From positions 1-64,000 of the forward strand of contig JAFVHU010000110.1 of the NCBI GenBank assembly GCA_017474385.1: DNA of 64,000 nucleotides, given 5' to 3'. Source of the stretch: Afipia sp. (GTDB lineage Bacteria; Pseudomonadota; Alphaproteobacteria; Rhizobiales; Xanthobacteraceae). Shown here in pieces: positions 16,083 to 64,000 of the stretch (its first letter is position 1; every line of letters begins with the position of its first letter). The notes below the pieces were generated by a model that had not been told where the DNA came from, did not search any database, and saw only the letters and a program-made list of their open reading frames with translations. The translations under genes and the position numbers were made by a program.

Positions 16083-16088
16083 CAATCG

Positions 16089-16657: not shown

Positions 16658-17440
16658 TTATATCCCCTCGCCGACCATCAGCAAAACATCCGCCGGACGC
16701 ATGGCACGGTTGAGCGAACGATCCAGCGAAGCCAGCACCTGATGCTTGACCACCTCGAAGGCAGACGAATTCCTGTCGCGCGGCCGGGTGAGGTCAACCC
16801 TGATTTCCTCGAACAAACGACCCGGCAGCGGCCGCATCACCATCACGCGATCCGCCAGCACCACCGCTTCATCGACATCGTGGGTGACAAGAGCAAGCGT
16901 CGGTTTGGTGTCGGCCCACAGATCGAGCAGATGATCTTGCAAGTCCGCACGCGTGAATGCATCGAGCGCCGAGAAAGGCTCATCCAGCAGCAGCACCTCC
17001 GGCGACGGCACCAGCGCCCGCGCGATCGCGACACGCTGTGCCTGCCCGCCTGACAGTTCGCGCGGCCATGCATCGGCCTTGTCGGCAAGGCCGACCCGCG
17101 CAAGCGCACGCGCAATCCGCTGTTGCCGCTCTGCGGACGTCAGATGGCTGAGGCCGAAGCCGATGTTCTCGGCGACACTGAGCCACGGCAACAGCCGGGG
17201 CTCCTGAAAGATGATGCCGATCTTTTCATGAGGCGCGGTGATCGAGATGGTATCGAGCGTGACGGACCCGGTCGTCGCGCGGTCAAGCCCGGAAATCGCG
17301 CGCAGCAGCGTGGATTTTCCGCAGCCCGAGCCGCCGATGATGGCGACGATCTCGCCGGGCTTGATGCGCGCGGAAAAATTCTCCAGCGCGTGGACACCGT
17401 TCGGATAGGTCTTGCCGACATGATCGAGAGCAAGCATCAC
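16658..17440 (-). CDS. ABC transporter ATP-binding protein, nitrate/sulfonate/taurine type
   Basis: ATPase of a nutrient importer of the SsuB/TauB/NrtD family. Walker A is GGSGCGKSTLL (about residue 36), Q-loop FQEPRLLPW, signature LSGGQAQRVAIARAL and Walker B LLLDEPFSALD. At 260 residues it is a normal single domain. The start codon overlaps the stop of the permease gene by ATGA, so the two are translationally coupled. The substrate class (sulfonate, nitrate, pyrimidine precursor) cannot be told from the ATPase. Confidence 0.92.
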   Translation of the reverse strand: MMLALDHVGKTYPNGVHALENFSARIKPGEIVAIIGGSGCGKSTLLRAISGLDRATTGSVTLDTISITAPHEKIGIIFQEPRLLPWLSVAENIGFGLSHLTSAERQQRIARALARVGLADKADAWPRELSGGQAQRVAIARALVPSPEVLLLDEPFSALDAFTRADLQDHLLDLWADTKPTLALVTHDVDEAVVLADRVMVMRPLPGRLFEEIRVDLTRPRDRNSSAFEVVKHQVLASLDRSLNRAMRPADVLLMVGEGI

Positions 17441-18288
17441 ACCCCTCCCGCATGCGCGCCAAACGAATCCTGCCAGCGCAGGAATGGCGCCGCGGCCAAC
17501 TGGATCAGCCAGTCAGTGGTCTTGCCGAGGACTGCGAACACGATAATGGCGGCAACGATTTGCGCTGGCTTGCCCAATTGCTGGCCGTCGGTCAGCAGGT
17601 AGCCAAGTCCCTCCGACGCGCCCATGAATTCAGCGGCGACCACGAACATCCAGCCAAGACCGAGACCGGAGCGCAACGACACGACATAGGCCGGCAGCAC
17701 TGCCGGCAGCATGATACGGCGGATCATCGCAAAGCCGCTGAGGCGGAAGATGCGGCCGACCTCAACGATCTTGCGATCGACGGCAAGGATCGCGCCCATC
17801 ACACCGAGATAGATCGGGAAGAAGACGCCGACCGCGATCAGCGCCACCTTGGAGGTTTCGAAGATCCCGAGCCACAGGATAAACAACGGCACCCAGGCAA
17901 TCGACGGGATTGCGCGGAGTGCCTGGAATGTCGGATCGAGCAGTCGCCGCACCAGCGTCCAGTAACCGCAGATCGCGCCAAGAATTGTTCCTGCTGCGAT
18001 GCCAAGTCCGAAACCCGCACCGACGCGGCTCAGCGTCGCGATAATATGCCGGCTCAATTCGCCGCTGGCCGAGAGTTCGACCAGCGTCTGCCAGATGCGG
18101 CTCGGCGGCGGCACCAGCCGTCCATTCGAGTAACCAAAACGCACGGCGAGTTCCCATGCCAGCGCAAGCCCGAGCGGCAACAGCAAGCCAATTGCAGGGC
18201 GCGCGAAGCGGCGCAGGCGGCCGGCGCGACGCGATCCTGCCTCCTCTCCAATGATTTCCGGCGCTGGCGTGTCGAGTGTCATGGTCAT
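17437..18288 (-). CDS. ABC transporter permease, SsuC/TauC type
   Basis: A 283-residue inner-membrane permease of the BPD_transp_1 family with about six helices. The EAA-like cytoplasmic loop is around AILAVDRKIVEVGRIFRLSGF, followed by LPAVLPAYVVSLRSGLGLGWMFVVAAEF, typical of nitrate/sulfonate/taurine permeases. It lies between the substrate-binding and ATPase genes, overlapping the latter by four bases. Confidence 0.92.
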   Translation of the reverse strand: MTMTLDTPAPEIIGEEAGSRRAGRLRRFARPAIGLLLPLGLALAWELAVRFGYSNGRLVPPPSRIWQTLVELSASGELSRHIIATLSRVGAGFGLGIAAGTILGAICGYWTLVRRLLDPTFQALRAIPSIAWVPLFILWLGIFETSKVALIAVGVFFPIYLGVMGAILAVDRKIVEVGRIFRLSGFAMIRRIMLPAVLPAYVVSLRSGLGLGWMFVVAAEFMGASEGLGYLLTDGQQLGKPAQIVAAIIVFAVLGKTTDWLIQLAAAPFLRWQDSFGAHAGGV

Positions 18289-18335
18289 AGCAAAGACCGT
18301 TTATTACAGGCGATTGCAAGAGTGCTCAGAGCGAA

Positions 18336-18362
18336 GGCCCGCAAGCTTGCAGCATGCGGGCC
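18336..18362. terminator. Intercistronic hairpin between binding-protein and permease genes
   Basis: GGCCCGCA (18336-18343) pairs with TGCGGGCC (18355-18362) across an 11-base loop. It directly follows the binding-protein gene in the direction of transcription and has no T tract. Such hairpins usually reduce read-through or protect upstream mRNA, keeping the binding protein more abundant than the membrane parts. Function is inferred. Confidence 0.5.
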
Positions 18363-18389
18363 CTTGAACGCGCCGTTTGCGGCACATCG

Positions 18390-19364
18390 TCAGTTCGTCG
18401 GCAGCGGCACCTGATCGTCGATCAGCGCATCCACCGTCGCTTTCACGTCCACACCCGGCTGGATTACACCGGCCTGCTGAAGCGCAAGGCCCGCGGCCAG
18501 AATCGACTCGCGCTGCGGCGCGCCGATGCGGTTATGCGTTAGTTCAGTGCGCTCCTTGAGTTGCTTGTCGACCACGGTTTCCGGCAGCTTGGTCACCGCG
18601 ATGAAGCCCTTCTTCAGTTCGTCGTAGTTGGCGAGCGAGTACTTGCGCGCCTCCTCGTAGACCGCGAGCACGCGCTGCACGATCTTCGGATTGTCCTTCA
18701 GAAACTGCTCGCGGACATTGAGAATGCCCCAGGTGTTGGCTTCGGGCTTGCGGAAGAACAGCTTAGCGCCGTCCTCGATCTCGGCCTGCGCCATCATCGG
18801 ATCGAGCCCCGCCCACGCATCGACATCGCCGCGGATCAGCGCGGCCTTGCCGTCGGCGTGCTGCAACAGAACCGGCGTGATGTCCTTGTCAGTCAGGCCC
18901 GCGTCGAGCAGCGCACGGACGAGGAAGATATGCGGATCGGTACCGCGCGTGACCGCAACGCGCTTGCCCTTCAGATCAGCGACCTTCGCGATCTTGGAGT
19001 CCTTGCCCGTCACCAGCGCGGTCCATTCGGGACGCGAGTAGACATAGACCGACTTGATTGGATTGCCGTTGATATTTGCGACCAGGGCAGCCGAACCGGC
19101 CGTCGAGCCGAAATCGATCGAACCGGCGTTGAGGAATTCGAGCGCCTTGTTGGAACCAGCCGACTGCACCCAGACGATCTTGATCCCGTCCTTTTCGAAT
19201 TCCTTTTCGAGCAGACCCTTCTCTTTCAGGATGATCGAGACCGGATTGTAGGTCGCCCAGTCGATCGCGATTTGCTTCGGCGCGTCGGCGGCAAGGGCTG
19301 CAGCCGGGGCGAACACAGCGCCTGCGATCAGGGCAGCAACAGCGCGTCGGGTTGGTCGGAACAT
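18390..19364 (-). CDS. ABC transporter substrate-binding protein, SsuA/NrtA-like
   Basis: Periplasmic binding protein of the importer encoded downstream. The 324-residue protein starts with a Sec signal peptide (MFRPTRRAVAALIAGAVFAP, cleavage after ALA near residue 25). The mature part has the NMT1/SsuA fold, with the SIILKEKGLLEKEF and IDFGSTAGSAALVANINGNP blocks. The ATG at 19364 has GGAG 7 bases upstream. The same frame stays open to 20285, but that part is antisense to glnD and not coding. Substrate is probably an alkanesulfonate or similar anion; not proven. Confidence 0.9.
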   Translation of the reverse strand: MFRPTRRAVAALIAGAVFAPAAALAADAPKQIAIDWATYNPVSIILKEKGLLEKEFEKDGIKIVWVQSAGSNKALEFLNAGSIDFGSTAGSAALVANINGNPIKSVYVYSRPEWTALVTGKDSKIAKVADLKGKRVAVTRGTDPHIFLVRALLDAGLTDKDITPVLLQHADGKAALIRGDVDAWAGLDPMMAQAEIEDGAKLFFRKPEANTWGILNVREQFLKDNPKIVQRVLAVYEEARKYSLANYDELKKGFIAVTKLPETVVDKQLKERTELTHNRIGAPQRESILAAGLALQQAGVIQPGVDVKATVDALIDDQVPLPTN

Positions 19365-19610
19365 CGTAGTCTCCATCTGGATCGAATTGCGGGTGATTTG
19401 GGACTTCCAGCGAGGACGACCGCTTGCCCGGTACGAAAAAATCATGTTATTTTTCAATAAGTTAAATGCCATCGTCAATGAGAAAATAACTCCGCAAATG
19501 CAACCCGCAGGAGAACCGCCTTCCCCCAAGGCGAGGAAAATCAGAACGGACGGTTCGTCTTGCCGCAATCCGCTGGTGACACCGTTGCTGCCGTCCGTTA
19601 TCCGAATGGA

Positions 19611-22406
19611 ATGGACAGCGTGACGGCCACACTCCCCCCGGACGACGACGTGATATTCGACAGCGCACGTATCGCAGGCGAAATCGACGTGCTCGCCCAG
19701 AAGCATGCCGGAAAAGACGACCTGCTTCGGGCGGCCATCACACAATTGCTGAAAATCGAACTCGCGCAGGCGCGCGAGGTTGCCCAGGCGGAATTGCTGA
19801 AAGACCGGCATGGGCGGCGATGCGCCGAGCGGCTTTGCTTTGTCCAGGACGAGATCATCCGCATCCTGTTCAACGCCGCGACCAAACATCTCTATCACTC
19901 GCCGACCCCGTCGGATTCCGAACGCATGGCCGTCATCGCCACCGGCGGTTATGGCCGCGGTCTGATGGCGCCTGAGTCCGATATCGATCTGTTGTTCATC
20001 CTTCCCTACAAGCAGACCGCCTGGGGCGAGCAGGTCGCGGAAGCGATTCTCTATTGCCTGTGGGACATGGGACTGAAGGTAGGTCACGCCACCCGCTCCA
20101 TCGACGAATCGATCCGGCAGGCGCGAGCCGACATGACGATCCGCACCTCGGTGCTGGAAACGAGATTCCTCACCGGCGACACCGCGCTCTACGACGAACT
20201 CGTCACACGCTTCGACAAGGAAGTCGTGCAGGGAACGGCTACCGAATTCGTGGCCGCGAAACTCGCGGAACGCGAAGAGCGGCACCGGCGCGCAGGCCAG
20301 TCACGCTATCTGGTTGAGCCCAACGTCAAGGACGGCAAGGGCGGCCTTCGCGATCTGCATACGCTGTTCTGGATCGCCAAATACGTCTACCGCGTCAGCA
20401 ATACCGAAGACCTCGTCCAACGTGGCGTGTTCGATCCGCAGGAATACCGCACGTTCCGCCGCTGCGAGGATTTTCTCTGGTCGGTCCGCTGCAACATGCA
20501 CTTCTTCACCGGCCGTCCCGAAGAGCGGTTGTCGTTCGAGATGCAGCGCGAAATCGCGCAGCGGCTCGGCTACACCTCGCATCCCGGCATGCAGGACGTC
20601 GAGCGCTTCATGAAGCACTACTTCCTGATCGCCAAGGAAGTCGGCGATCTCACCGCCATCCTGTGCGCCAAGCTGGAGGATCAGGAGGCCAAGCCCGCGC
20701 CGGTGCTGAGCCGGATGATGGCGAGGCTCCGGCCCGGCCGCAAACGCGGCCGCGTACCGGGCGGCGAAGATTTCGTCATCGACAACAACCGCATCAATCT
20801 TGCGGCGCCCGACGTGTTCAAGACCGATCCGGTCAACCTGATCCGCATCTTCCGGCTCGCGCAGAAAAACAATCTGGCGTTCCATCCCGATGCTATGCGC
20901 GCGGCGACCCGCTCGCTCGGCTTGATCACGCCGAAGCTTCGCGAAAATCCCGAAGCCAACAAACTTTTCATGGAAATTCTGACCTCGAACGACGCAGAAA
21001 CCGTGCTGCGGCGGATGAACGAGGCCGGCGTGCTTGGCCGCTTTATCCGCGCGTTCGGGCGGATCGTGTCGATGATGCAGTTCAACATGTATCATCACTA
21101 TACGGTCGATGAGCATCTGCTGCGCTGTATCGGTATCCTTCAGGACATCGAGCGCGGAGGGAACGACGAATTCGTCGTCGCCAGCGACCTGATGCGGAAA
21201 ATCCATCCCGAGCACCGCGCCGTGATCTACATGGCGGTGTTCCTGCATGACATCGCCAAGGGCCGCCCGGAGGATCATTCGATCGCGGGAGCCAAGGTCG
21301 CGCGGCGGCTGTGCCCGCGCTTCGGATTTAATGCCGCCGACACCGAGCTGATCGCCTGGCTGATCGAAGAACACCTCACCATGTCCACAGTGGCGCAATC
21401 GCGCGATCTGTCGGACCGCAAAACCATCGAGAATTTCGCGGCGGTGGTTCAGTCGGTCGAGCAGATGAAACTGCTGACCATCCTGACCACGGCCGACATC
21501 CGCGGCGTCGGCCCCGGCGTCTGGAACGGCTGGAAAGCGCAGCTGATCCGCACGCTCTATTACGAAACCGAACCCGTGCTGACCGGCGGCTTCTCCGAGG
21601 TCAATCGCGCCCAGCGCATCGCGGTTGCGCAAGCGGAATTCCGCGCAAACTTCACCGAGTGGCCAGACAGCGAACTCGAAGCCTATATCTCACGGCACTA
21701 TCCCGCGTACTGGCTGAAGGTCGAGCTGCCGCGCAAAATTCGCCACGCGCGCTTCGTCAAGGCCAGCGAGGCCGGCGGCCACAAACTCGCGGTCAATGTC
21801 GGTTTCGATGAGGGACGCGGCGTCACCGAACTGACGATCATGGCGCCCGATCATCCCTGGCTGCTGTCGATCATCGCCGGCGCCTGCGCCTCGGCCGGCG
21901 CCAACATCGTTGACGCGCAGATCTACACCACCACCGACGGCATCGCGCTCGATACCATCGCGATTACCCGCGAGTACGATCGCGACGATGACGAAGGACG
22001 GCGCGCGACCCGCATCGGCGACACCATCGAACAGGTGCTGGAAGGCAAATTGCGCCTGCCGGACATGATGGCGCGCCGCACGGCGTCCAAGACGCGCCTC
22101 AAGCCGTTCAGCGTCGAGCCGGAAGTCAGCATCAACAACCAGTGGTCGGATCGCTACACCGTGATCGAGGTCTCCGGCCTCGATCGTCCGGGTCTGCTGT
22201 TCCAGCTCACCACCGCGATTTCCAAACTGAACCTGAACATCGCATCGGCCCACGTCGCGACCTTCGGCGAGCGCGCCCGCGACGTGTTCTATGTCACGGA
22301 TCTGCTCGGCGCGCAGATCACTGCGCCCACCCGGCAGGCCGCGATCAAGCGGGCATTGATCCATCTGCTCGCCAACGGCGATGCGGCGGAGAAGCCGGCA
22401 GCCTAA
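19611..22406 (+). CDS. glnD: Bifunctional uridylyltransferase/uridylyl-removing enzyme GlnD
   Basis: Senses glutamine and modifies PII proteins (GlnB/GlnK), controlling nitrogen metabolism. The 931-residue protein shows the nucleotidyltransferase motif GGYGRGLMAPESDIDLLF (about residues 112-129), the uridylyl-removing HD domain with HHYTVDEHLL and VFLHDIAKGRPEDHS (about 500-560), and two C-terminal ACT domains (about 725-800 and 840-915) that bind glutamine. The ATG at 19611 is the usual start; the frame extends upstream to 19560. It diverges from the importer operon and overlaps ogt by four bases at the stops. Confidence 0.96.
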   Translation: MDSVTATLPPDDDVIFDSARIAGEIDVLAQKHAGKDDLLRAAITQLLKIELAQAREVAQAELLKDRHGRRCAERLCFVQDEIIRILFNAATKHLYHSPTPSDSERMAVIATGGYGRGLMAPESDIDLLFILPYKQTAWGEQVAEAILYCLWDMGLKVGHATRSIDESIRQARADMTIRTSVLETRFLTGDTALYDELVTRFDKEVVQGTATEFVAAKLAEREERHRRAGQSRYLVEPNVKDGKGGLRDLHTLFWIAKYVYRVSNTEDLVQRGVFDPQEYRTFRRCEDFLWSVRCNMHFFTGRPEERLSFEMQREIAQRLGYTSHPGMQDVERFMKHYFLIAKEVGDLTAILCAKLEDQEAKPAPVLSRMMARLRPGRKRGRVPGGEDFVIDNNRINLAAPDVFKTDPVNLIRIFRLAQKNNLAFHPDAMRAATRSLGLITPKLRENPEANKLFMEILTSNDAETVLRRMNEAGVLGRFIRAFGRIVSMMQFNMYHHYTVDEHLLRCIGILQDIERGGNDEFVVASDLMRKIHPEHRAVIYMAVFLHDIAKGRPEDHSIAGAKVARRLCPRFGFNAADTELIAWLIEEHLTMSTVAQSRDLSDRKTIENFAAVVQSVEQMKLLTILTTADIRGVGPGVWNGWKAQLIRTLYYETEPVLTGGFSEVNRAQRIAVAQAEFRANFTEWPDSELEAYISRHYPAYWLKVELPRKIRHARFVKASEAGGHKLAVNVGFDEGRGVTELTIMAPDHPWLLSIIAGACASAGANIVDAQIYTTTDGIALDTIAITREYDRDDDEGRRATRIGDTIEQVLEGKLRLPDMMARRTASKTRLKPFSVEPEVSINNQWSDRYTVIEVSGLDRPGLLFQLTTAISKLNLNIASAHVATFGERARDVFYVTDLLGAQITAPTRQAAIKRALIHLLANGDAAEKPAA

Positions 22407-22942
22407 CTGCGCGCTCGTTTGCCGAGTGCCGCGCCTTCATGGGCAAGCAGCCATTCCTTGCGCGCGAGCCCGCCGCCATAGCCGGTCAGAGAACCGTCGG
22501 CGCCGATCAGCCGATGACACGGCACGACGACGCTGACCGGATTTGAGCCGTTGGCGAGGCCGACCGCACGGGCAGCATTCGGCACGTTCAAGCGAGCCGC
22601 GAACGCACCATAACTCGATGTTTTACCCGCGCGGATTTTCTGCAGCTCCGTCCATACCTTGCGCTGGAACGCCGTGCCGTTGGTCCGCCATTTGATCTTT
22701 TTCAATTCGCCAAGATCGCCGGCAAAATAACGGGTCAGTGCTGCCGTGATGTTTTTGGGAGCCGACGCACGTTCCAGCACGTAGTCCCCATAGTGCCGCC
22801 GAAGCAGGCGATGCAGCCGTGTCTCGTAGTCGCTCCAGTCGAGCGCGCGCAGGAAGCCCAGATCGTCGGTGACGAGCAAGGCGGTGCCGATCGGCGTTTC
22901 AAGCCGGTCGAGATGAAATCGCTGAAGTTGATTTGAGGTCAT
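22403..22942 (-). CDS. ogt: Methylated-DNA-protein-cysteine methyltransferase
   Basis: Suicide enzyme that removes alkyl groups from O6-alkylguanine. The 179-residue protein has the acceptor cysteine in VVVPCHRLIGADGSLTGYGGGL (about residue 145) and the helix-turn-helix with the arginine finger in NVPNAARAVGLANGSNP. It lacks the Ada DNA-binding domain. The stop codon overlaps that of glnD in convergent orientation. Confidence 0.93.
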   Translation of the reverse strand: MTSNQLQRFHLDRLETPIGTALLVTDDLGFLRALDWSDYETRLHRLLRRHYGDYVLERASAPKNITAALTRYFAGDLGELKKIKWRTNGTAFQRKVWTELQKIRAGKTSSYGAFAARLNVPNAARAVGLANGSNPVSVVVPCHRLIGADGSLTGYGGGLARKEWLLAHEGAALGKRARS

Positions 22943-23079
22943 GTTCGGTTTCCGTCATCACGAGTTTCCGCCATCTTGGCCGCCGTGATGCGGGAAGTCT
23001 TTCCGTTTTCCGACAACATCGGGGTCTCGGCAATTGTCGCGCTTGCTGCTAGGTTCCCGCCCCTACAGGGGGAATTGCC

Positions 23080-23454
23080 ATGAATTTGATTGCCAATGTT
23101 CTCGTCGCACTGGTCGCGGCGCTGCACATCTATTTCCTGGTGCTGGAGATGTTTCTCTGGACCAAGCCAAAGGGCCTCGCGACATTCGGCAACACGATCG
23201 AGAAGGCGCAGGCCTCCGCGGTGCTGGCCGCCAATCAGGGACTTTATAACGGCTTCCTGGCTGCCGGGCTGATCTGGGGTCTGCTCCACCCCAACCTGGC
23301 GTTCGGCTTCCAGATCAAGGTGTTCTTCCTGCTGTGTGTGATCGTGGCCGGACTTTACGGCGGCTATTCGGTCAGCAAGCGGATCATCATGGTGCAGGCG
23401 CTTCCCGCCGCGGTCGCGCTTATCCTGCTCTGGCTGGCACGCGCCGCGACCTGA
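23080..23454 (+). CDS. DUF1304 family membrane protein
   Basis: A 124-residue membrane protein of the DUF1304 family with four predicted helices (about 1-25, 48-67, 72-92 and 97-120). The motifs ALHIYFLVLEMFLW and AANQGLYNGFLAAGL are typical. Function is unknown. AGGGGG lies upstream of the ATG. It converges on the DUF1330 gene. Confidence 0.88.
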   Translation: MNLIANVLVALVAALHIYFLVLEMFLWTKPKGLATFGNTIEKAQASAVLAANQGLYNGFLAAGLIWGLLHPNLAFGFQIKVFFLLCVIVAGLYGGYSVSKRIIMVQALPAAVALILLWLARAAT

Positions 23455-23476
23455 GATCGCGACGCGTAGGTCGTAT

Positions 23477-23908
23477 CTACTCCGGGGTTTCACCGAAGGT
23501 TTTGCCGACCTGCATAGGGGCGGTGCGGATCAGCCGCGAGTCCTCGACCGCGGCCTGACGATGCTTGACCGCTTCGCGGTAAGCCGGATCGCGGATCATT
23601 TCCACGAAAGCGGCGACGCTCGGATACTCGGCGATGAAGCAGTGATCCCAGCGTTCTTCCGACGGGCCGATCAGCATCAGTTCGAACTTGCCCTGCCAGA
23701 CGATCCGGCCGCCGAGCCGGGTGAACACCGGCCCGCTCTCGCGCCCATAACTGGCATAGGCCTCCGCACCGGTGGCCTTGCGCCCGTCGGGATACTTCGC
23801 CTGCGCATGCAGCCGCACCAGATTCAGCATGTGGATCGGACCGGGACGATCGTTGGCGCGGAACGCCGCGAAGACTTCCTTGGTCGGGTCGATATGGCCG
23901 GTCATCAT
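23477..23908 (-). CDS. DUF1330 domain protein
   Basis: A 143-residue protein with a ferredoxin-like DUF1330 domain: PIHMLNLVRLHAQA near the start, a GGRIVWQGKFELMLIGPSEERWD strand pair, and YPSVAAFVEMIRDPAYREAVKHR. Members are small cytoplasmic proteins of unknown function, sometimes next to oxidoreductases. Two adjacent ATGs (23908 and 23905) are both possible starts. Confidence 0.85.
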   Translation of the reverse strand: MMTGHIDPTKEVFAAFRANDRPGPIHMLNLVRLHAQAKYPDGRKATGAEAYASYGRESGPVFTRLGGRIVWQGKFELMLIGPSEERWDHCFIAEYPSVAAFVEMIRDPAYREAVKHRQAAVEDSRLIRTAPMQVGKTFGETPE

Positions 23909-24085
23909 CTTTACCTTTGTGCATGAAATTGACCGGCAGACTCAGTCGATCCGCCAAGCCGGGTCAAGACAACTCCGGGCCGGCATTTCTGCCATGCCCG
24001 CGGCGGAACATCTAATCCCTCGTTAACCTTTGCGTAACGCGCCTTTAAACCGCCATCGCTAGCCTGCACGCCTTGCATTATCAGC

Positions 24086-26389
24086 ATGTCGGCACGGGCT
24101 TGGATGGCGTTGGGGCGTAAAAAGAACAGCGGTCGCAAGGAGCCGAAATTCGACGGCGCCGCATCGCTGGACGGCGTTCGCCTCAATCCATGGGATCGCG
24201 TCGGCGGTCCTGAGGATGACGAAGACATCAAGCCGAAGCGGCGCGCGGCGAAAAGCCGTCCCGTCGATGACGACGAGGACGATGCCCCGCGCGAGCCCCG
24301 TCCGCGCAAGACTCGCGCGGCAGCCCGTAAGGAAAGCAAGACCAAGGCGAAAGGGCGCGCGCGCTCCGGTCTCGGCCGTCTTGTGTATTGGGGTGCCGTG
24401 CTCGGCCTGTGGGCGATCATCGCCGGCGCCGGTGTCATCATCTGGGTCGGTGCGCACCTGCCCGCGATCCAGTCGCTGGAAATTCCCAAGCGACCTCCCA
24501 CCATCCAGATCACCGGCATGGACGGCAGCGTGATCGCTACCCGTGGCGAAATGCCGGGCGCCAATGTGTCGGTGAAGGATCTGCCGCCCTATCTGCCGAA
24601 GGCATTCATCGCCATCGAGGACCGCCGCTTCTACTCGCATTTCGGCGTCGACCCGACCGGCATCATGCGCGCGGCCGTCACCAATCTCCTGCATCGCGGC
24701 GTCTCGCAGGGTGGTTCGACCCTGAGCCAGCAGCTCGCCAAGAACCTGTTCCTGACGCAGGAGCGCACGTTCCAGCGCAAGCTGCAGGAAGTCGAACTCG
24801 CGCTCTGGCTGGAGCGGAAGTATTCGAAGAACGAAATTCTGGAACTGTATCTCAACCGCGTTTATTTCGGCTCCGGCGCTTACGGCGTCGAAGCGGCGGC
24901 GCAGAAGTATTTCGGCAAGTCAGCGAAGAACGTCTCGCTCTCCGAAGCTGCGATGCTCGCAGGTCTCGTCAAGTCGCCGTCGCGGCTGGCGCCCAACCGC
25001 AACCCTGAAGGCGCCGAGAAGCGCGCGCAAATCGTCCTGAGCGCGATGGCCGATGTGAGCTTCATCACCGATGCGCAGGCCAAGGCCGCAATCGAAAAGC
25101 CATCCTATGCCGTCAAACCGGTTGGCGCCGGCACCATCAATTACGTCGCCGACTGGATCGGCGAGGTACTCGACGATCTCGTCGGCCAGATCGACCAGAA
25201 CATCGTGGTGGAAACCTCGATCGATCCGAAGCTGCAAAGCGTCGCCGAAGCCGCGATCATCGATGAGCTCGCCACCAAAAGCGTGAAGTTCAACGTCACC
25301 CAGGGCGCGCTGGTGGCGATGACGCCGAGCGGCGCGGTGCGCGCCATGGTCGGCGGACGCAACTACGCCGAAAGCCAGTTCAACCGCGCGGTCACTGCGA
25401 AACGCCAGCCCGGCTCGGCGTTCAAGCCGTTCGTCTATCTCACCGCCGTCGAAGGCGGCATGACACCGGATACGGTGCGTCAGGATGCGCCGCTCGACGT
25501 CAAGGGCTGGCGGCCGGAGAACTACAGCCGCGAATATTTCGGCCCGGTGACGCTGACGCAGGCGCTGTCGATGTCGCTGAACACCGTTGCCGTCCGGCTT
25601 GGCCTTGAAGTCGGTCCAGCCAATGTCGTGCGGACCGCGCATCGTCTCGGCATCGCCTCAAAGCTCGAGCCTAACGCGACGATCTCGCTCGGCACATCGG
25701 AGGTTTCGCTCAACGAACTGGTGGGCGCCTACGCGCCATTCGCCAATGGCGGATTCAGCGCCTCGCCGCATGTGGTGAACAGGATTCGCACCCCCGAGGG
25801 CAAAGTGCTCTACGCACGCCGCAACGATCCCCCGACGCGGGTGATCGATGCCAACGCGGTGGGCATGATGAATGTCATGATGCACGAGACGCTGGTCACC
25901 GGCACCGCAAAGAAGGCCGACATTCCGGGCTGGTCGGCGGCGGGCAAAACCGGGACCAGTCAGGATTTCCGTGACGCCTGGTTCATCGGCTACACCGCGA
26001 ACCTTGTCACCGGCGTCTGGCTCGGCAACGACGACAACTCGCCGACCAAGAAGGCGACCGGCGGCGGGTTGCCGGTCGAGGTCTGGACCCGGTTCATGAA
26101 GGCCGCGCACCAGAACGTCGCGGCTGCGCCATTGCCGGGCTCAACGCAGTCGCCCGGCGGCTTCCTCTCGAATCTGTTTCCCGGAAATTCGCGGACGCCT
26201 GCGCGCGAGCCCTACCCTGCGCAATCCTATCCACAGCAGTCGAATAATCAGGATTATCCGAATGCGCCTGCGCCCTATCCGCCGCAGCAGCAAAGCCGTC
26301 CGCCCGTCACGCAGACATCTGCGCGTCCGGAAGCGGCAGCGGGTCTCGATGGCTGGCTGATCGATCGGGTTTTCGGCGGACGGCGCTGA
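24086..26389 (+). CDS. Class A penicillin-binding protein 1A
   Basis: Bifunctional peptidoglycan synthase in the inner membrane. The 767-residue protein has a long basic and acidic cytoplasmic N-terminus (1-90), one transmembrane helix (about 100-125), a GT51 transglycosylase (catalytic Glu in AIEDRRFYSHFG; GGSTLSQQLAKN) and a transpeptidase with SxxK in RQPGSAFKPF, SLN in MSMSLNTV and KTG in AGKTGTSQDFRDAW. The C-terminus (about 700-745) is Pro/Gln-rich and low complexity. An alternative ATG at 24104 would shorten it by six residues. Confidence 0.94.
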   Translation: MSARAWMALGRKKNSGRKEPKFDGAASLDGVRLNPWDRVGGPEDDEDIKPKRRAAKSRPVDDDEDDAPREPRPRKTRAAARKESKTKAKGRARSGLGRLVYWGAVLGLWAIIAGAGVIIWVGAHLPAIQSLEIPKRPPTIQITGMDGSVIATRGEMPGANVSVKDLPPYLPKAFIAIEDRRFYSHFGVDPTGIMRAAVTNLLHRGVSQGGSTLSQQLAKNLFLTQERTFQRKLQEVELALWLERKYSKNEILELYLNRVYFGSGAYGVEAAAQKYFGKSAKNVSLSEAAMLAGLVKSPSRLAPNRNPEGAEKRAQIVLSAMADVSFITDAQAKAAIEKPSYAVKPVGAGTINYVADWIGEVLDDLVGQIDQNIVVETSIDPKLQSVAEAAIIDELATKSVKFNVTQGALVAMTPSGAVRAMVGGRNYAESQFNRAVTAKRQPGSAFKPFVYLTAVEGGMTPDTVRQDAPLDVKGWRPENYSREYFGPVTLTQALSMSLNTVAVRLGLEVGPANVVRTAHRLGIASKLEPNATISLGTSEVSLNELVGAYAPFANGGFSASPHVVNRIRTPEGKVLYARRNDPPTRVIDANAVGMMNVMMHETLVTGTAKKADIPGWSAAGKTGTSQDFRDAWFIGYTANLVTGVWLGNDDNSPTKKATGGGLPVEVWTRFMKAAHQNVAAAPLPGSTQSPGGFLSNLFPGNSRTPAREPYPAQSYPQQSNNQDYPNAPAPYPPQQQSRPPVTQTSARPEAAAGLDGWLIDRVFGGRR

Positions 26390-55408: not shown

Positions 55409-55485
55409 GCACCCGTAGCTCAGCTGGATAGAGCGTTGCCCTCCGAAGGCAAAGGTCACACGTTCGAATCGTGTCGGGTGCGCCA
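55409..55485 (+). tRNA. tRNA-Arg, anticodon CCG
   Basis: A complete 77-base cloverleaf. Acceptor arms GCACCCG (55409-55415) and CGGGTGC (55475-55481) pair perfectly; the D arm is GCTC-AGCTGGATA-GAGC, the anticodon stem TTGCC/GGCAA (55436-55440, 55448-55452) holds the loop CTCCGAA with anticodon CCG, and the T arm is ACACG-TTCGAAT-CGTGT. CCA is encoded at 55483-55485. The 3' part is overlapped on the other strand by the recombinase frame. Confidence 0.95.
55456..55485. other. Putative left attachment region inside tRNA-Arg
   Basis: The last 30 bases of the tRNA gene are also the last nine codons and stop of the recombinase. A crossover in or near this stretch is the simplest explanation. The exact core cannot be found without the right end of the element or an empty site. 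Confidence 0.45.
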
Positions 55486-57132
55486 TTCCGGTCCCAAACC
55501 ACGAACGTTTTGGAGGGGGCTGGATTTGCCGAGAATGGCCGCTCTGACGGCTTCCCGACTGCCGACGATTTTCACCGATTTGTCGCCGACAATGATAGCG
55601 CCGACGACCGTCCGCAGATACGCCTTGCGCGCGGGCGTTTCGCCATTATCGAGCAGGTCTCTCATAAGTTTGCTGAACGCAGCGATCCTTTCCGGGTCGA
55701 TGCTGGCCGATGGCAGCACTTGCGACGCTGCGTGGTCATAGGCCGCCTGGGCCTTCTCGCGGTCGGCTTTGAGTTCAACGATTCGCTCGCGAAGAAGATC
55801 GTCGAGTTCGACGATGCCTTCCTCGATCCCCCGATAGAGACGCTTGAGGCGATCTTCGGCATCGACGACCTGAGATTTTAGCGTAGCAAGGCGGCGGTCA
55901 ACGGCGGCGGTGCGTTCCTGACGCCGGGCGGCAATCGCGGAAAGCAACTCGGCCAGACGCTCGGGCGTGAACATGTTCTCCCTGAGCGCCCTCAGAACCA
56001 GATCATCCAGGAACGCCATCCGGATCGTGTTCCCCCGGCAGGCCGTCGGTCCCTTCTGCGCACGGCTGGCGCAGGTGTAATAGGCATAAATCCGCCCTGT
56101 GCTGGAGGTCCCGGTCCGCTGCGTCATCCCACCGCCGCAATGCGCACATTTGGCAAGTCCGGTCAGAAGGATCGGACCAGTGACCACGCGCGGGGCCGTG
56201 ACCTTGGGGTTATTGGCCACAAGCTGGGCCTGGACGCGGTCGAACAGATCCTGCTCGACAATGGCGGGAGTTGCGATCTCAACGATTTCCGAGGCGGGTT
56301 TGCGTTCGCCGGTCCTGGCGGAGCGAACATTGTAACGCCAGCGGCCAACATAGACGGTGTTAGTCAGGATATGGTGCGCCGGACCGACGCCAAAGGTCCC
56401 GCCGGCCTTGGTCCGGTAACCACGTCCGTTGAGCCACTTGACCAGTTGCTTGATGCCGAGCGGTGGCGTGCCGGTCCCGGTGTCACCTTCCGCATAGAGG
56501 CGAAAAATGAGCCGGACGGTCTCGGCCTCGACGGGCTCGACAGCGAGGTGCTTCTTGATCTTCTGCCCCCGCCGTTCGGCTTCGACAATGGTGTAACCGA
56601 GCGGAGGCGAGGCACCGTTCCAGAACCCTTGTTTGGCATTCTCCTTCATCGCCCTGGTCACGTTCTTGCCGTTTTCCTTCGAGGTATATTCGTCGAAGAT
56701 GCCGATGATCTGGCGCATCATTTCCTGGGACGGATCGGTGCCGGTGGGCTGCGTCATTGAGACGACCTCGACGCCGTGACGGCGAAGCTTGCGGATCGTC
56801 AACTCCATCGTGGCGCCGTCGCGGAAAAACCGCGAAAAGGAGTGCACGACGATGACGTCATAGGGGTGATCTGCATCGCAGGCCCGTTCCAGCATCGCCT
56901 GAAACACCGGCCGCCGATCGTCGGTCGCGCTGGCGCCGGGCTCGACATACTCATCGACGACAGTCCAGCCGTTCGACAGACAATGACGCGTGGTCAAGTC
57001 GCGCTGCGAGGGAATTGACACCTCGCCCTCTGCCTGCCGTCCGGTCGAGACTCGCAGATAAACAGCGGCTCTCAACGGCTCCGGACAGTCCGTTGCAGCA
57101 AGACTTGTTCTTGTTTGCAAATTCCGGGTCAT
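55456..57132 (-). CDS. Large serine recombinase (integrase of the element)
   Basis: A 558-residue serine recombinase that integrates and excises the element. The catalytic domain (1-150) has the nucleophile serine in [14 protein letters not shown] and the arginine-rich [12 protein letters not shown]; a Recombinase domain follows ([17 protein letters not shown]), then a zinc ribbon CAHCGGGM...[14 protein letters not shown] (about 335-370) and a coiled coil (about 400-470). The last nine residues, WRTRHDSNV, and the stop TGA are encoded antisense to the tRNA 3' half. The tRNA CCA end forms the Trp codon. Large serine integrases in tRNA genes are less usual than tyrosine ones. Confidence 0.93.
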
Positions 57133-57198: not shown

Positions 57199-57546
57199 TC
57201 ACGCCGCCATCATGTCGAACTCGACATGAACGCGGTCATAGGGAAATTCCACGCCCCCACTTTCGGTCCGCTCCAAAATCCCCACGCCCAGCAGCAGCGT
57301 CACGTCGGAGTGGACCCCCTTGAAGTCTCGGTCGACCCGACGCGCGACTTCCCGGATCGTCAGCGGGCCGGCTCCGGTCATGACGCGCACGATCTCCATG
57401 CGCTTGGGTGCCAGCACCCGCCAAAGGTCGCTGACGCTCTCGAATGAAATTCGGTCGTCGCCAGCCTTACGCTGCCCGTGTGCAGTCGCCAGGATGCGGC
57501 GCGTTAGGTCGATTTGTGTCTCGACGCCCAGGATAACCGTCCGCAT
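57199..57546 (-). CDS. Putative antitoxin, TumA/HVO_A0114-like DNA-binding protein
   Basis: A 115-residue winged-helix protein: APKRMEIVRVMTGAGPLTIREVARRVDRDFKGVHSDV gives helix-turn-helix and wing of the MarR-like HVO_A0114 type. It follows the toxin gene after three bases, toxin first and antitoxin second, as in several type II pairs. It probably binds the toxin and represses the common promoter at 57838-57877. The name is by family resemblance only. Confidence 0.75.
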   Translation of the reverse strand: MRTVILGVETQIDLTRRILATAHGQRKAGDDRISFESVSDLWRVLAPKRMEIVRVMTGAGPLTIREVARRVDRDFKGVHSDVTLLLGVGILERTESGGVEFPYDRVHVEFDMMAA

Positions 57547-57549
57547 GCT

Positions 57550-57828
57550 CTATCTCCGCTTATTCACGTCGCGCCAAAAATCCGCCAGCAGCCGCTCCAG
57601 CCCACGAAACGTATAAGAGCTTTCCTTGCCATCCAGGTGGCGATGATCGCCCTTGCCGCGCTCGTTATCGTAACGCACGCGGCAGACGCCGTTCACCACA
57701 TAGGCGAGCCGGTATTTGTAGTTGTGCTGACTGCCCGAGACGGGCTCGGGAACCTCCCACACAACCAGCTCCGCAAAGCCGGGGCCGACGACAAGGCGGG
57801 TTCGCGTAATCTTACGTGCCTTGGCCAT
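57550..57828 (-). CDS. Putative toxin, TumE (DUF6516) family
   Basis: A 92-residue protein with the DUF6516/TumE pattern: YKYRLAYVVNGVCRVRYDNE, GKGDHRHLDGKE and TFRGLERLLADFWRDV. TumE-type toxins pair with MarR-like antitoxins. It starts with ATG at 57828 only a few bases after the predicted transcription start, with no Shine-Dalgarno sequence, so translation is probably leaderless. Confidence 0.78.
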   Translation of the reverse strand: MAKARKITRTRLVVGPGFAELVVWEVPEPVSGSQHNYKYRLAYVVNGVCRVRYDNERGKGDHRHLDGKESSYTFRGLERLLADFWRDVNKRR

Positions 57829-57965: not shown

Positions 57966-58211
57966 TCACTTCCGCTTGGGGATCTTCATCGCTTCATCCG
58001 GTGCAGCGGCGCCGTTTCGTGGTAAGTCAGCACCCCCAAACAGCGCATCGAGCTGTCTGCCGAGCCAGGTTTCCAGTACCTGCACCTCGGCGTCGGAAAC
58101 GCGAAGAGAGCGGTCGATATCGAATTCAACCGACCAGCCGGCCTCCTTGCCCAGATTTCCTCTTGTCGCCGACCGCCGCGAGGTGCGCGCCGCTCTCCGC
58201 TCAGCGGCCAT
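57966..58211 (-). CDS. 81-residue protein translationally coupled to the relaxase
   Basis: The ATG at 58211 lies inside the last codons of the relaxase gene in another frame; the overlap is 11 bases. The product has a basic start (MAAERRAARTSRRSATRG) and a conserved-looking core VEFDIDRSLRVSDAEVQVLE and LGRQLDALFGG. I recognise it as the kind of small hypothetical protein that follows MobF relaxases in rhizobial elements; no function is known. The longer frame to 58613 is a shadow of the relaxase. Confidence 0.7.
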   Translation of the reverse strand: MAAERRAARTSRRSATRGNLGKEAGWSVEFDIDRSLRVSDAEVQVLETWLGRQLDALFGGADLPRNGAAAPDEAMKIPKRK

Positions 58212-60963
58212 AGTCCAACCCGCGGTCATGCGTGCGCCCACTGGATGGCGGAGCGGGGCGGACGGCCTCTTGCGCCGCAGGCGGCTTGGTAGGTGGCCGC
58301 ATTGCCATATCCGCCGATTGCCGGCTGTGATGCCGATCGGCCTGTTTCGCCGGCGGAGTGGCCTGTTCGATGACGGCGATCGTCGATGTCTTGGCGTGTC
58401 CGTTGGACAGTCGTCCGGCGAGTAGTGCGCGCCGCTCTTCGGCGGATGCTGCTTCGGCCTGCTGCGCGCGATCCAGCGGCAGACCGGAGGAAAGCAGCGC
58501 GTTGATCTGGGAGCGATCGACGACAAGGCGGGTTTCGTCGCGGGCGCGGCTCGCTGCGACATGTACGGCATGGCGATCGAACCGGGGATCGAGCAGCACG
58601 ACGGCGCGATCAACTGTCATGCCCTGTGATCCGTGCACGGTGCTGGCATAGGCCCAGCCGAGCCGAGTTCGTCCGCGTTCGTCGGCGATGTCGGCGGGAG
58701 CGAAGCTGATGCGGCGCGTGGCGATGACCGCTTCAATACGGATGTTGCAGGGCGTATTCTGGTCTTTCGACGGATCAGCGTGGATGGCGGTCACAGTCGC
58801 AACCGTGCCGTTGACGACGCCGAGCTGATCGTTGCGAAGCTGGAAGCGGATTTTGTCGCCGGCCGCGATTTCAAGACGGGTTGACCGGCCCGATGGCGTA
58901 ACCGCTTCAACGCTGGCCTCTGCGCCGTGAATGACACCCTCGCGTTTGAGTTCGGCGCGAACCGCCCGTGAGACATCCGCGACCTGTTTGTTGGTCCGGG
59001 CGATCAGGAGGGTAGAACTGTCGGGATGCTCGACGCTTGCATGGTTCCAGAGTTCGACGATCCGCTGCAGCGTAGCCCGGTAGGAGGGAGCTTCTTCGAA
59101 GCAGCCGTGCGCCTGGAATGCGTCAAGCGCTTCCTCGGCCCGACCCGCGCCGAAATCCGTTACGGCCTGGCGCGCCCAGGCGTCACGCTGGCGCACAATG
59201 GTGTCAACGCGCGTGGCCTCGACGCTGCGAACGACGAGATCGAGTCCCGGGCCCGCGCCGATCGCCTGCAATTGCCGGCGATCGCCGACCAGGATCACCC
59301 TGGCTTGTGCCCGCTCGACTTCCGATAGCAGTGCATGGGTTTCTCGTGAAGACAGGAGACCCGCCTCGTCCACGATCAGAACCGACTTCTCGTCAAGGAA
59401 GCGCTCACCGGTCCTAAGGCGTTCGACCCAGGACGCGGTTGCTCGCGCTTCGATGTTCAGATCCTGTTGGAGCGCACGGGCGACACGCCATGCGGTGGCC
59501 GTGCCGATAACGCGATGACCGGCCGCCTGCCAGGCTTCCACGATCGGCGCGAGTGTCGTGGTCTTGCCCGAGCCCGGAGCGCCTTCGATGACGACGATGG
59601 CATTTGGACCCGTTGCGGCCTCGGCGGCAAAGGCCTGTTCAGCGCTCAACCCACGCGCGGCGCTTCGCGCCATGATGTCGGCGCGTTCAATCCCCGCCCC
59701 GCGCCGTTCAGCCAGCCTTGAGGTGGTCGCAACCAGGTCGCGCTCGATCGCGATCATCTCTGGCGTCGAGTAACGCGCCTGGCCTATGGCATCGCGGCCG
59801 ATTTCGACGAATGTCCCGGAGGTGACAAGCTGATCGACCTCCTGGTCAACTCGCGACAGTGGCAGGCCGAGCCCGACACTTGCCGCGTGGACGGAGCGAA
59901 CCAACTCGCGGCGGTCGATGACGCTTTCATGCTGCGTCAATTCTGCCGGCAGCGTCGCCAGCCGGTCGGCGAAGATGTGCCCGGCATCCCCGGCGATAAA
60001 TTCCCGAGCCGATCGCTTCTGAAGCGCCGCGCGGATGTCACCGTCAAGACCGGTCGATTGTGCCGCCTCCCGCCAGATCGTTTTGCGTTCGGCATCCAGT
60101 TCTTTCGCGTGGCGCGTCGATTTGGCGACAGCTGAGGCCAGCGCAGCCGAGGAACCGCTGCTCGTGCCCGCCTCGGCCAGCTCCCTTTCAATTTCCTGCC
60201 GGCGCGCGGAGAAATAGGTTATGGCTTTGTCGCTTATACCGGCCAGCTCGAACGTGCCGTTCTGCCCGAGGCGATTGATATCGAAGCCGAGTTCGGCCAT
60301 CTCGTTTGCGAGGGCCGCATGATAGACGGCACCCGCCGCCATCTTCCAGTCGCGCAGGACGGTGGAATGCAGCGCTCCCACCGTGCCATCGGCGCGCGTC
60401 GCCATGTTGAGGACGACGGCATGGGTGTGAAGGTTCGGATCACCGAAGACCCGACCGTCGGCATGCTCCGCCGGGCGACTTTCGCCATGCTGGAACAACG
60501 CGGCCGTCAGCGCGACCTTTTCGACGCGTGCGCCATCTTTGCCGCGGCGTGCGTATATCGCTTCGCGTTCAATCGTGACCAGGGTGGCGCGGACGGCGCG
60601 CTCCTGTGCAGCTTCGAGGTTGCGACGCAGATTTTCATCCCCGAAGGCCCACGCCAGCGACACCGAGCGCGGCGCGGAAAACGTCAGGTCGAAGGCCGGA
60701 ACACGCCGGTCCACCGTGCTGCCCGCGTTGGTGAGAAGCGACTGCCCGTTCTCGCCGAGCCCTTCATAGAGGCGGGCGAAATCTTTCGGCTGGACCGTTG
60801 CTGCATCGCGTCGGCCGAGATCGCCACGCGGCGCATACCAGACGCCCTCCGGCTCCCTGCTGCCAAGATAATATTCGGCGCCGCGCGCATAATAAGCGCT
60901 GGACGCCGCCACATTCCACGTCGCAACCACCGCAATGGTCTCCGAACTTAAGACCATTGACAT
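58201..60963 (-). CDS. MobF family relaxase with helicase domain (TraA/TrwC-like)
   Basis: A 920-residue conjugative relaxase. The N-terminal domain has candidate catalytic tyrosines in AYYARGAEYYLG (Y24/Y25, Y31/Y32) and the metal-binding HTH motif in DPNLHTHAVVLN (H179, H181). A SF1 helicase domain follows with Walker A GAPGSGKTTT (461-470) and motif II VLIVDEAGLLSSRE. It nicks oriT, binds the 5' end and unwinds the strand. The C-terminus is Pro/Arg-rich. Slightly shorter than TrwC. Confidence 0.93.
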   Translation of the reverse strand: MSMVLSSETIAVVATWNVAASSAYYARGAEYYLGSREPEGVWYAPRGDLGRRDAATVQPKDFARLYEGLGENGQSLLTNAGSTVDRRVPAFDLTFSAPRSVSLAWAFGDENLRRNLEAAQERAVRATLVTIEREAIYARRGKDGARVEKVALTAALFQHGESRPAEHADGRVFGDPNLHTHAVVLNMATRADGTVGALHSTVLRDWKMAAGAVYHAALANEMAELGFDINRLGQNGTFELAGISDKAITYFSARRQEIERELAEAGTSSGSSAALASAVAKSTRHAKELDAERKTIWREAAQSTGLDGDIRAALQKRSAREFIAGDAGHIFADRLATLPAELTQHESVIDRRELVRSVHAASVGLGLPLSRVDQEVDQLVTSGTFVEIGRDAIGQARYSTPEMIAIERDLVATTSRLAERRGAGIERADIMARSAARGLSAEQAFAAEAATGPNAIVVIEGAPGSGKTTTLAPIVEAWQAAGHRVIGTATAWRVARALQQDLNIEARATASWVERLRTGERFLDEKSVLIVDEAGLLSSRETHALLSEVERAQARVILVGDRRQLQAIGAGPGLDLVVRSVEATRVDTIVRQRDAWARQAVTDFGAGRAEEALDAFQAHGCFEEAPSYRATLQRIVELWNHASVEHPDSSTLLIARTNKQVADVSRAVRAELKREGVIHGAEASVEAVTPSGRSTRLEIAAGDKIRFQLRNDQLGVVNGTVATVTAIHADPSKDQNTPCNIRIEAVIATRRISFAPADIADERGRTRLGWAYASTVHGSQGMTVDRAVVLLDPRFDRHAVHVAASRARDETRLVVDRSQINALLSSGLPLDRAQQAEAASAEERRALLAGRLSNGHAKTSTIAVIEQATPPAKQADRHHSRQSADMAMRPPTKPPAAQEAVRPAPPSSGRTHDRGLDYGR

Positions 60964-62305: not shown

Positions 62306-64000
62306 TCACGCGCCGGTCTTCGCCCACGCGGCGTCCCTGTAGGCTTCGCGCCGCTTTCGCCAATGTGTGAACGGAGTTTCGACGACGGCAGGATTGCCGA
62401 GACCGAAAACAAGAGCGCGAACGGCAAGGACACCGTCAACGATGCGCACGCCAAGCTCGTTGTCCAGGTAATTTGGCGCGATCACGTCGATTTCATTCTC
62501 TTGCCGGATTTTCTCAGGCTTGTCCCTGCTGGCGGCAACCCACGTTTCGATTGTGCGGCGACCTGCATATTTGCATACCACGCGTTCGCGTGTTTCGGAA
62601 ATGCCGAGTTTGCACACGACTTTGATCTTGAAGCGCGCTTCAAGCGTCGCCGCGTCGTGCTGCTGATAGAGCTTGAGGATTTGCTCCCAGTCCTGGGTCG
62701 CTACGATGGCGGCTGCTCCTTTTTCCCGGCCGACATTGAGCAGTTTCGGAAACTGTTCAAGACGCCCCAGAACGGGCAGCTCATCCAGGATCAGGTGCAG
62801 CCACGGACGATCCCGTTTCGGCATGGAGGGGCTGAGCAACTTGCCGCAGACGACATCCACAAGCAGGCCGCTGATCGCCGTCGAGAGAAGGGGATACTCC
62901 GCATTATGCTGGAGAACGATCGTCCGTGGCAGACCGGACTGCTCGGAAAGCCAGTCGCCGACGCTGAAGCGGCGCTCGTTGCTGGAGGCTTCCGCCTGCG
63001 CCAGCGGGCGGATCGTCGTCAAGGCCGCGACCCACAGCGTCAGCATCAGGCTTAGCGTGGTTCTGTTGGCCGCGCCGTCGTCGTCGAGTTCGATGAGATG
63101 GGCACTCGGCGCACGCGCGACCTCAAGAGCCGCGCGTAGCTCTTTCGGGCTTTTGAACACGAACTTAAACAGGTCGGCCCATCCCCAATCGGTTTTGCGC
63201 TCACGTTGCAACGCCTCGATGGTTCCCGACAGGATGGCCTTCGCGCCATTGGACCACATCGATTCCAGTTCTGGGCCCGACGGCACGAGCTTTTCCGCAA
63301 CCTCGCGAGCGCCTTGCGCATTGGTGACGTCGCGGCCGATATCCCAAGTCCATCCTCTTGCGTCATGAGGCGCCACCAGAAGAATCCGGTCAATCGGCGC
63401 GCAGGAGAGAACGTCGCCCTTGGCGTCGTGAATGATCGATCGCCCCCCACGCACCAGAATCTGTTCAGCCCAACCACGGATCATCGCGCTCTTGCCCGAA
63501 CCTTGGTCGCCGACGACAAGAATATTGGAAGCCTCTGCGACGGGCGTAAGCTGAACGTAGGGCGCAAGCCAGAGCGAATCCGGCTGCGCCGCTCCGGTCA
63601 CGGCAATGGCGTTGCGCAGTGAGATTCGGCCCTGCGCCCCAAATATCGGCCACGGACCCCGGATCGTGCGGACCGTCTCCTTCGGCGAAGTATGCTTCCA
63701 GCTCCAGATCGCCGCAAGAAATGCCGCGATCATCGAGCAGCCAAGAAAAAGGTAGAGCCGGACATAGAACGGCGGCCAAGCCAACCACGCCCGGAGATTG
63801 GCTGTGCGGCAATCGAGATTGAAGACCTGCAACGGCCCCGGTCCGCAGTAGCGTTGGAAACCGTCATCCCAGACCGTTCTCCAGAAATAAGCCGGGGTGA
63901 TGTTCGGACTGGCAAATGGAGCAAGAAGGGCGATGATGAAGAAGCTAAAGATCATGACGCCACATGCCGCAAGTAGCGCGGCTGCCAATGCGGGGCCGGT
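62306..64000 (-). CDS. Type IV coupling protein, TraD/VirD4-type (start beyond window)
   Basis: Inner-membrane ATPase that links the relaxosome to a type IV secretion channel. Two N-terminal helices (AACGVMIFSFFIIALLAPFA and YVRLYLFLGCSMIAAFLAA) precede Walker A VVGDQGSGKSAMIRG and Walker B HLILDELPVLGRLE, then QDWEQILKLY. The frame is open to the window edge, so the true start probably lies outside; at least 564 residues are present. It converges on the DUF736 gene. Confidence 0.9.
   Translation of the reverse strand, partial: TGPALAAALLAACGVMIFSFFIIALLAPFASPNITPAYFWRTVWDDGFQRYCGPGPLQVFNLDCRTANLRAWLAWPPFYVRLYLFLGCSMIAAFLAAIWSWKHTSPKETVRTIRGPWPIFGAQGRISLRNAIAVTGAAQPDSLWLAPYVQLTPVAEASNILVVGDQGSGKSAMIRGWAEQILVRGGRSIIHDAKGDVLSCAPIDRILLVAPHDARGWTWDIGRDVTNAQGAREVAEKLVPSGPELESMWSNGAKAILSGTIEALQRERKTDWGWADLFKFVFKSPKELRAALEVARAPSAHLIELDDDGAANRTTLSLMLTLWVAALTTIRPLAQAEASSNERRFSVGDWLSEQSGLPRTIVLQHNAEYPLLSTAISGLLVDVVCGKLLSPSMPKRDRPWLHLILDELPVLGRLEQFPKLLNVGREKGAAAIVATQDWEQILKLYQQHDAATLEARFKIKVVCKLGISETRERVVCKYAGRRTIETWVAASRDKPEKIRQENEIDVIAPNYLDNELGVRIVDGVLAVRALVFGLGNPAVVETPFTHWRKRREAYRDAAWAKTGA

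Follow-up and report, generated by a model that had tools for sequence, protein, structure and literature searches.

The window, meaning the whole stretch of 64,000 nucleotides analysed here, belongs to an Afipia sp. contig (C22) and contains an intact tRNA gene into whose 3' end an integrase gene runs antisense, with genes for a toxin, a relaxase and a coupling protein on the integrase strand. The features are as follows.

55409..55485, plus strand: tRNA-Arg(CCG), intact host gene whose 3' end is the attB target (ARAGORN)
55456..55485, minus strand: end of the integrase frame, nine codons WRTRHDSNV and a TGA stop, on the complement of the tRNA T arm and acceptor end
55456..57132, minus strand: large serine integrase reading frame, 558 amino acids in the integrated form
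55480..55485, plus strand: core GCGCCA, tRNA positions 71-76, crossover site predicted by analogy with relatives
55486..55506, minus strand: left attP arm within the integrase coding sequence, plus strand TTCCGGTCCCAAACCACGAAC
57199..57546, minus strand: HVO_A0114-type HTH protein, by inference a likely antitoxin (Pfam PF25212)
57550..57828, minus strand: TumE-family toxin (Pfam PF20126)
58201..60963, minus strand: TrwC-type relaxase with helicase (Pfam PF08751, PF13604)
62306..63988, minus strand: TrwB/TraD-type coupling protein (Pfam PF10412)

The integrase matches the Pfam models Resolvase (PF00239), Recombinase (PF07508) and Zn_ribbon_recom (PF13408), all above cut-off, and because these three domains are present the reading frame is assigned to the large serine recombinases, as an initial annotation of this DNA had proposed; the recognised domains are over by residue 384 of 558. 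The top NCBIfam score for the protein comes from the CcrB model NF047343, and since the 155.6 bits obtained are far under the cut-off of 900 the integrase is not a member of that family. The W-R-T-R-H-D-S-N-V codons occupy exactly positions 55459-55485 and the TGA stop is the complement of 55456-55458; ARAGORN places the encoded CCA of the tRNA at 55483-55485, where the TGG of the integrase falls, and on the integrase strand the core GCGCCA reads TGGCGC, that is, Trp-Arg. The tRNA prediction and the reading-frame coordinates bear out the initial claims that the integrase ends antisense in tRNA-Arg(CCG), with nine codons and the stop on the tRNA complement, and that the encoded CCA supplies the Trp codon. 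The same 77-nucleotide tRNA-Arg(CCG) is found with different flanks in relatives, for example G012, G013 and G203. Of the ICE gene set, the integrase, TrwC and TrwB are present in the window. Genes for TumE/DUF6516 and an HTH protein lie directly before the integrase both in the window (57199-57828) and in two plasmid copies (L218, 5226-5974; L220, 2226-2974).

Relatives of the integrase were sought in six frames in 151 genomes, 98 of which gave matches at an E value of 0.001, distant serine recombinases among them; full-length relatives are mostly 42-59% identical to the window protein, with one at 35%, among the matches listed. At 21 of 28 loci, the window counted (the 30 best-scoring loci of this search minus two left out), a complete tRNA gene is overlapped antisense by the integrase end. 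A scan of named genomes (Bradyrhizobium, Sphingomonas, Methylocystis, Methylobacterium, Rhodopila, Nitrobacter and others) used the best 80 of 560 relatives and accepted in-frame TGG only, which left 79 scorable loci and one without a scorable Trp codon. At 60 of these 79 the CCA of a complete tRNA gene coincides exactly with an in-frame TGG, the tRNA types being Arg (CCG 19, ACG 13, TCT 4, CCT 1), Ser (CGA 8, GGA 7, TGA 5) and Glu (3). Inspection by eye of the other 19 found 12 with a tRNA T-loop just past the TGG, one that joins another element, and six with neither, one of these cut by a contig end. The recurrence of the antisense overlap across relatives (21 of 28 and 60 of 79) indicates that it is not due to chance. 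Integrated tails at the 60 full tRNA genes, again among the best 80 of 560 relatives, range from 4 to 148 residues, their length varying because the tRNA and the host flank set the position of the stop. The initial remark that serine integrases are unusual in tRNA genes agrees with the available text of PMC4701971, in which all 29 streptococcal serine-integrase ICEs lie in protein genes, but it does not extend to the present family, for which tRNA genes are routine targets.

Two plasmid copies, in Brevundimonas pBH3a and Enterobacter hormaechei pKPC_CAV1176, have short and unrelated integrase tails, and no tRNA was found in the stretch holding either integrase. In two further genomes, G006 (L074, about 670) and G021 (L078), no tRNA gene was found at the integrase end, and the family integrase appears by eye to sit at a lone tRNA 3' half, a possible remnant of a tyrosine-integrase island. 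If these sites are indeed lone tRNA 3' halves, attB would need only the 3' part of a tRNA.

Serine integrases recombine at a very short core that is common to attL and attR, and their attP has inverted arms. Both features are present in relatives of the window element, the short core TGGCGC in S. meliloti ml21 and inverted arms there and in others. Element-free sites are available at three places, namely the window locus (in G012), the site of a related element (in G203) and S. meliloti pSymB, where ml59 (CP140948.1) has an empty site and ml21 (CP140937.1) carries the element. The flanks of the S. meliloti pair agree at 99.96% identity over 5229 bp and at 100% over 624 bp. Read on the integrase strand, attB of ml59 is GAAAGAC-TGGCGC-ACCCGACAGG, attL of ml21 is GTAAG-TGGCGC-ACCCGACAGG and attR of ml21 is GAAAGAC-TGGCGC-GCCCGAGAGG, so that only TGGCGC, the tRNA 3' end, is common to attL and attR. 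According to the coordinates 38,553 bp separate the two TGGCGC copies, and by eye the inverted arms of ml21 are 14 bp long (GGAGTGCCCAGTTT/AAACTGGGCACTCC). G203 is the empty site for the element of G112, having tRNA-Arg(CCG) followed directly by the right-flank sequence of G112 with 385 of 400 positions identical past the CCA. Position 70 of the tRNA is T in attL and C in attR of G112, which places the crossover 3' of that position; only 13 of 60 positions upstream of the tRNA are identical between G112 and G203, which counts against a simple reading of this pair. In G012 the tRNA is followed directly by the 2.4-kb segment that in the genome of the window lies behind a right arm on contig C118.

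By analogy with these relatives the window crossover is placed in GCGCCA, since ml21 attL and attR share only this core, since G112 and G203 put the crossover 3' of position 70, and since the arms on C118 contain GCGCCA too. The junction, which according to the initial annotation would have refuted it by lying far from the tRNA, falls within the last six bases of the tRNA, and the comparison with element-free sites at three places identifies the tRNA as host DNA. Judged from these alignments, the tRNA at the integrated site is the host's own, unchanged and not restored by the element. In the usual arrangement for islands in tRNA genes, as described in the available text of PMC4383910, the element would instead carry and restore the 3' part of the tRNA, leaving a long repeat at attR and an unchanged integrase end. 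Such an arrangement is hardly credible here: attR at G112, at ml21 and on C118 contains only the short core, the ml59/ml21 pair contradicts it directly, and no second copy of the 25-base tRNA 3' end was found with up to 3 mismatches in the window's own genome, an assembly that is 84% complete.

In the integrated form the ml21 integrase ends, on translation, in WRTRQDSNL-stop, and this host tRNA-derived tail is also the one in its annotated coding sequence. When the frame is followed onward from the right-end TGGCGC, as it would run in the predicted circle, it gives WRAREDETGHSYVIVAPIHF-stop. Because the tail differs between the integrated form and the predicted circle, the C-terminus and stop of the integrase depend on the joint between element and host, as had been claimed initially for the window.

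The left arm of the window resembles the CCA-adjoining left arms of relatives. Inverted counterparts of these arms occur at right ends, and in several related elements the counterpart found at the far end terminates in TGGCGCGCCA or a similar sequence. A 47-base right-end pattern was found in 130 of 391 genomes of the family, and a search for the right arm by itself was positive in 21 of 397 genomes taken from the order; a reversed control pattern gave none among the matches listed. In the integrase frame the right ends encode one short peptide with the consensus WRAxQNKTANSYVIEIxx-stop or, with close variants, W-R-A-x-Q-N-K-T-A-N-[S/T]-Y-V-I-E-I-x-x-stop. In a first set of right ends, found with a search pattern that extends into codon 16, short of the stop, the encoded peptide is 18 or 19 residues long in 32 of 37. 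A second set, partly overlapping the first, was picked by the arm only (codons 1-10) and comprises 29 sequences (31 rows minus two backwards-read left arms); the stop comes after exactly 18 residues in 24 and after 17, 21, 22, 30 and 34 residues in the other five. Over all 79 distinct arms, a few of which are left arms read backwards, 60 stop at 18 or 19 residues. Among the 24 tails of 18 residues, four have no initial Trp, Tyr12 is present in all (TAT in 22, TAC in 2), position 15 is Glu or Asp and position 16 is Ile or Val, and the stop codons are TAA (21), TGA (2) and TAG (1). Over codons 11-18 of these tails pN/pS is 0.52 in frame compared with 0.98 and 1.53 in the other frames, and a value this low arose in 2 of 100 column shuffles, the sequences being related to each other. 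Mean pairwise identity of the 29 sequences is 0.64 over the last 24 bases up to and including the stop, compared with 0.25 over the 24 bases beyond.

Conservation of the right ends might have a non-coding cause, the DNA serving as a longer attP or as the site of a directionality factor, and some of the observations fit such a cause: the right arm is conserved DNA anyway, as the inverted counterpart of the left arm, some right arms keep the tail in arrays whose segments show no integrase, and conserved DNA yields shared stops in other frames as well, such as a TGA that 26 of 29 have at base offset 41, so that a fixed stop alone is no proof of coding. We nevertheless regard a purely non-coding cause as very unlikely, since codons 12-19 lie outside the inverted arms and differ synonymously there, three stop codons are used at one position and the conserved block ends at the stop, and the S. 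meliloti tail, with different arms, keeps S-Y-V-I. The overlap might also be neutral, attP having settled for compactness in a dispensable gene end whose tail has no role in either state. The gene tolerates integrated tails of 4 to 148 residues (best 80 of 560 relatives) and the recognised domains of the window protein end well before its tail, as neutrality would predict; the residues and stop position of the circle-only tail are kept across genera, and conservation ceases at its stop codon, which makes neutrality unlikely.

An integrase reading frame joined to a right arm is intact in one of the 79 arms and shortened in another. The intact case is a tandem junction in G104 (L104; Rhodoplanes MAG, L223), where the integrase frame continues without interruption into the right arm of the adjacent element and terminates in WRASPNKTANTYVIEIALCSQ-stop. 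The family tail was absent from the viral-contig loci (35 of 40 loci read), the exact right-arm core pattern had 0 matches in viral contigs, and no free circle of the element was seen in the plasmid and phage collections.

No right arm is recognisable on the window contig C22 up to its end at 101,329; four arm sequences matched it at best at 20 of 30-31 positions, which is chance-like. Past the window (L031, L032) it encodes several multicopper oxidases, an outer membrane efflux protein, a thiolase and a porin, which are either cargo or host chromosome. A long tRNA repeat was considered as the right end, and in the own genome (162 contigs) only the tRNA itself matched. A 16-base arm with 3 mismatches gave 57 hits there against 50 in the control, a chance level, so only near-exact matches were followed, and the tRNA flank of G013 had no match in this genome. 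The sequence that follows the tRNA in G012, by contrast with that flank, matches contig C118 at 90.7% over 2.4 kb, and the matching segment is preceded by a right arm at C118:15438-15467; about 9.4 kb beyond, at 24807-24857, a second right arm is joined to a left arm. These arms together with the G012 match suggest that the window site probably holds an array, and either C118 arm could be the right end of the window element. The tails of both candidates are damaged, one by an early stop (WRAIQNNTAN-stop), the other reading WRGIQNKTANS and then other residues, with what appears by eye to be an 8-base duplication in the arm; for this reason the circle of the window element is described by analogy with relatives.

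Arrays of successive right arms, spaced 1.4-9.4 kb, are seen at L174 (G418; 9192-18348), L176 (G017; 3771-14529), L177 (G445; 12827-17406) and on C118 itself (about 13000-24857). Each segment of the G418 array has one long reading frame, encoding an NAD-glutamate dehydrogenase, an LTXXQ protein and a protein without a Pfam match, and the C118 segments contain an nfeD-slipin pair and genes for nitrate/nitrite reductase. At the search cut-offs used the array stretches gave no integrase match, and the segments look like cassettes moved in trans. At several places a right arm is followed by an inverted arm 44-45 bp on, start to start (L174, 14798/14843 and 16984/17028; L176, 3771/3816 and 10237/10282; L180, 13958/14003), which may represent the left end of a type of element that has no integrase. 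At L178 (G440; 14997-15046) two right arms lie head to head with a common palindrome TGGCGCGCCA, as inverted recombination at a palindromic core would give.

From the sequence comparisons above it is probable that attP lies in the 3' end of the integrase gene and that integration swaps an element-encoded tail for a tRNA-antisense one. In the proposed mechanism attP would span the Trp-Arg codons near the 3' end of the gene, which in the circle would continue across attP into the other end of the element and so acquire the conserved native tail. The integrase would recombine attP with the last tRNA bases (positions 71-76, GCGCCA or a close variant), leaving the tRNA whole and host-derived with the element joined directly after the CCA. 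The native tail, made up of the 16-18 codons that follow the core, would be cut from the gene and left at the far end of the element, in attR, and the integrase frame would be joined antisense to the host tRNA and end in tRNA-coded residues, WRTRHDSNV-stop in the window. The DNA sequences document the anatomy of the integrated gene, the element-free sites, the core and, at the right end, the conserved tail with its stop, and the circle form is read from the two element ends. The native-tail form made from a newly entered circle would then be the form selected for integration, and loss of the tail may lower or change activity and so help to hold the element in place.

With the tail lost, excision would depend on the tRNA-tailed enzyme assisted by a helper factor, or on an intact integrase supplied by a second copy. 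The transfer genes in the window speak for an element able to leave; accumulation of elements is suggested by the arrays and by the presence of several right arms in a genome. One account of the tail, which we put forward tentatively, is that it acts as a directionality switch: the native tail would serve integration, and the tRNA-derived tail would bar re-integration and be set for excision with or without a helper. The element would in this way sense its own state through the reading frame across the junction, and in tandem arrays the right arm of a newcomer would give a native tail to the next integrase in line. Alternatively, integration may be self-silencing, the native tail being required and the tRNA-tailed form dead, with exit only by way of an incoming or tandem intact integrase. 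More than one right arm is often present in a genome, sometimes closely arrayed, as would be expected of accumulating elements, and at L104 the integrase next in line owes a tail of native type to the right arm of its neighbour; an archaeal precedent for such suicidal integration exists in the SSV type (available text of PMC8371274). The window element, however, with its relaxase and coupling-protein genes, would need excision for transfer, and 22 of the 30 best-scoring integrase loci are full length without a stop, which counts against a useless integrated form but with the reservation that best-scoring loci favour intact genes. Self-silencing integration is on balance possible but doubtful.

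Serine integrases are in wide use as tools, and a central question is how they distinguish integration from excision; here a natural family would rewrite its own C-terminus at each reaction, and its two natural forms are directly comparable. Sequences deposited in databases from integrated copies have tails derived from the host tRNA and are without the conserved last residues, which is relevant to cloning. The tRNA genes, moreover, are targeted at the very CCA end by an element without a longer piece of the tRNA.

The present family belongs to a known kind, C-terminal exchange on integration, for which the streptococcal rumA ICEs and the Myxococcus phage Mx8 are precedents. In the rumA ICEs the serine integrase gene has its 3' part exchanged on integration, which alters the C-terminus of the enzyme (Ambroset et al., 2016, PMC4701971, available text); like the present elements they have a single serine integrase and an att site inside its gene, but their target is a protein gene that is itself altered, whereas the present family targets several tRNA types and leaves them unchanged. 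The present family differs also in its antisense-tRNA tail, its occurrence in alphaproteobacteria and its conserved circle-only tail, and the account of the rumA ICEs in the available text of PMC4701971 reports no test of tail conservation. In Mx8 (Magrini et al., 1999, as cited in the available text of PMC4701971) attP likewise lies inside the integrase gene and integration replaces the C-terminal 112 residues by 13, the altered integrase being less active; unlike the present integrases, that of Mx8 is a tyrosine integrase and the lost segment is much larger. The features of this kind, attP in the integrase and two alternative 3' ends, are present in ml21; for the window element the integrated 3' end alone is certain.

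Archaeal SSV-type integrases also have the recombination site in the integrase gene, and integration separates the gene parts, but these are tyrosine recombinases split into two large parts, whereas in the present family about 16-18 codons are exchanged and the catalytic part stays whole (available text of PMC8371274, a review that calls self-disrupting recombinases exclusively archaeal). An SSV-type suicidal integrase was rejected for the window, whose integrated frame is that of a serine recombinase with all three domains. In mycobacteriophage BPs attP again lies in a coding sequence, and the protein acquires another C-terminus on integration and thereby another state, but the gene is the repressor and not the integrase, and its longer form is unstable through an ssrA-like tag (available text of PMC4557955). 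In the open-licence literature searched, no description was found of a serine integrase that is directed to tRNA genes and has its tail exchanged. Compared with these systems, what is new here is the tRNA 3' end as a target that is left unaltered, the antisense-tRNA tail, the breadth of the family in Alphaproteobacteria and the conserved circle-only tail.
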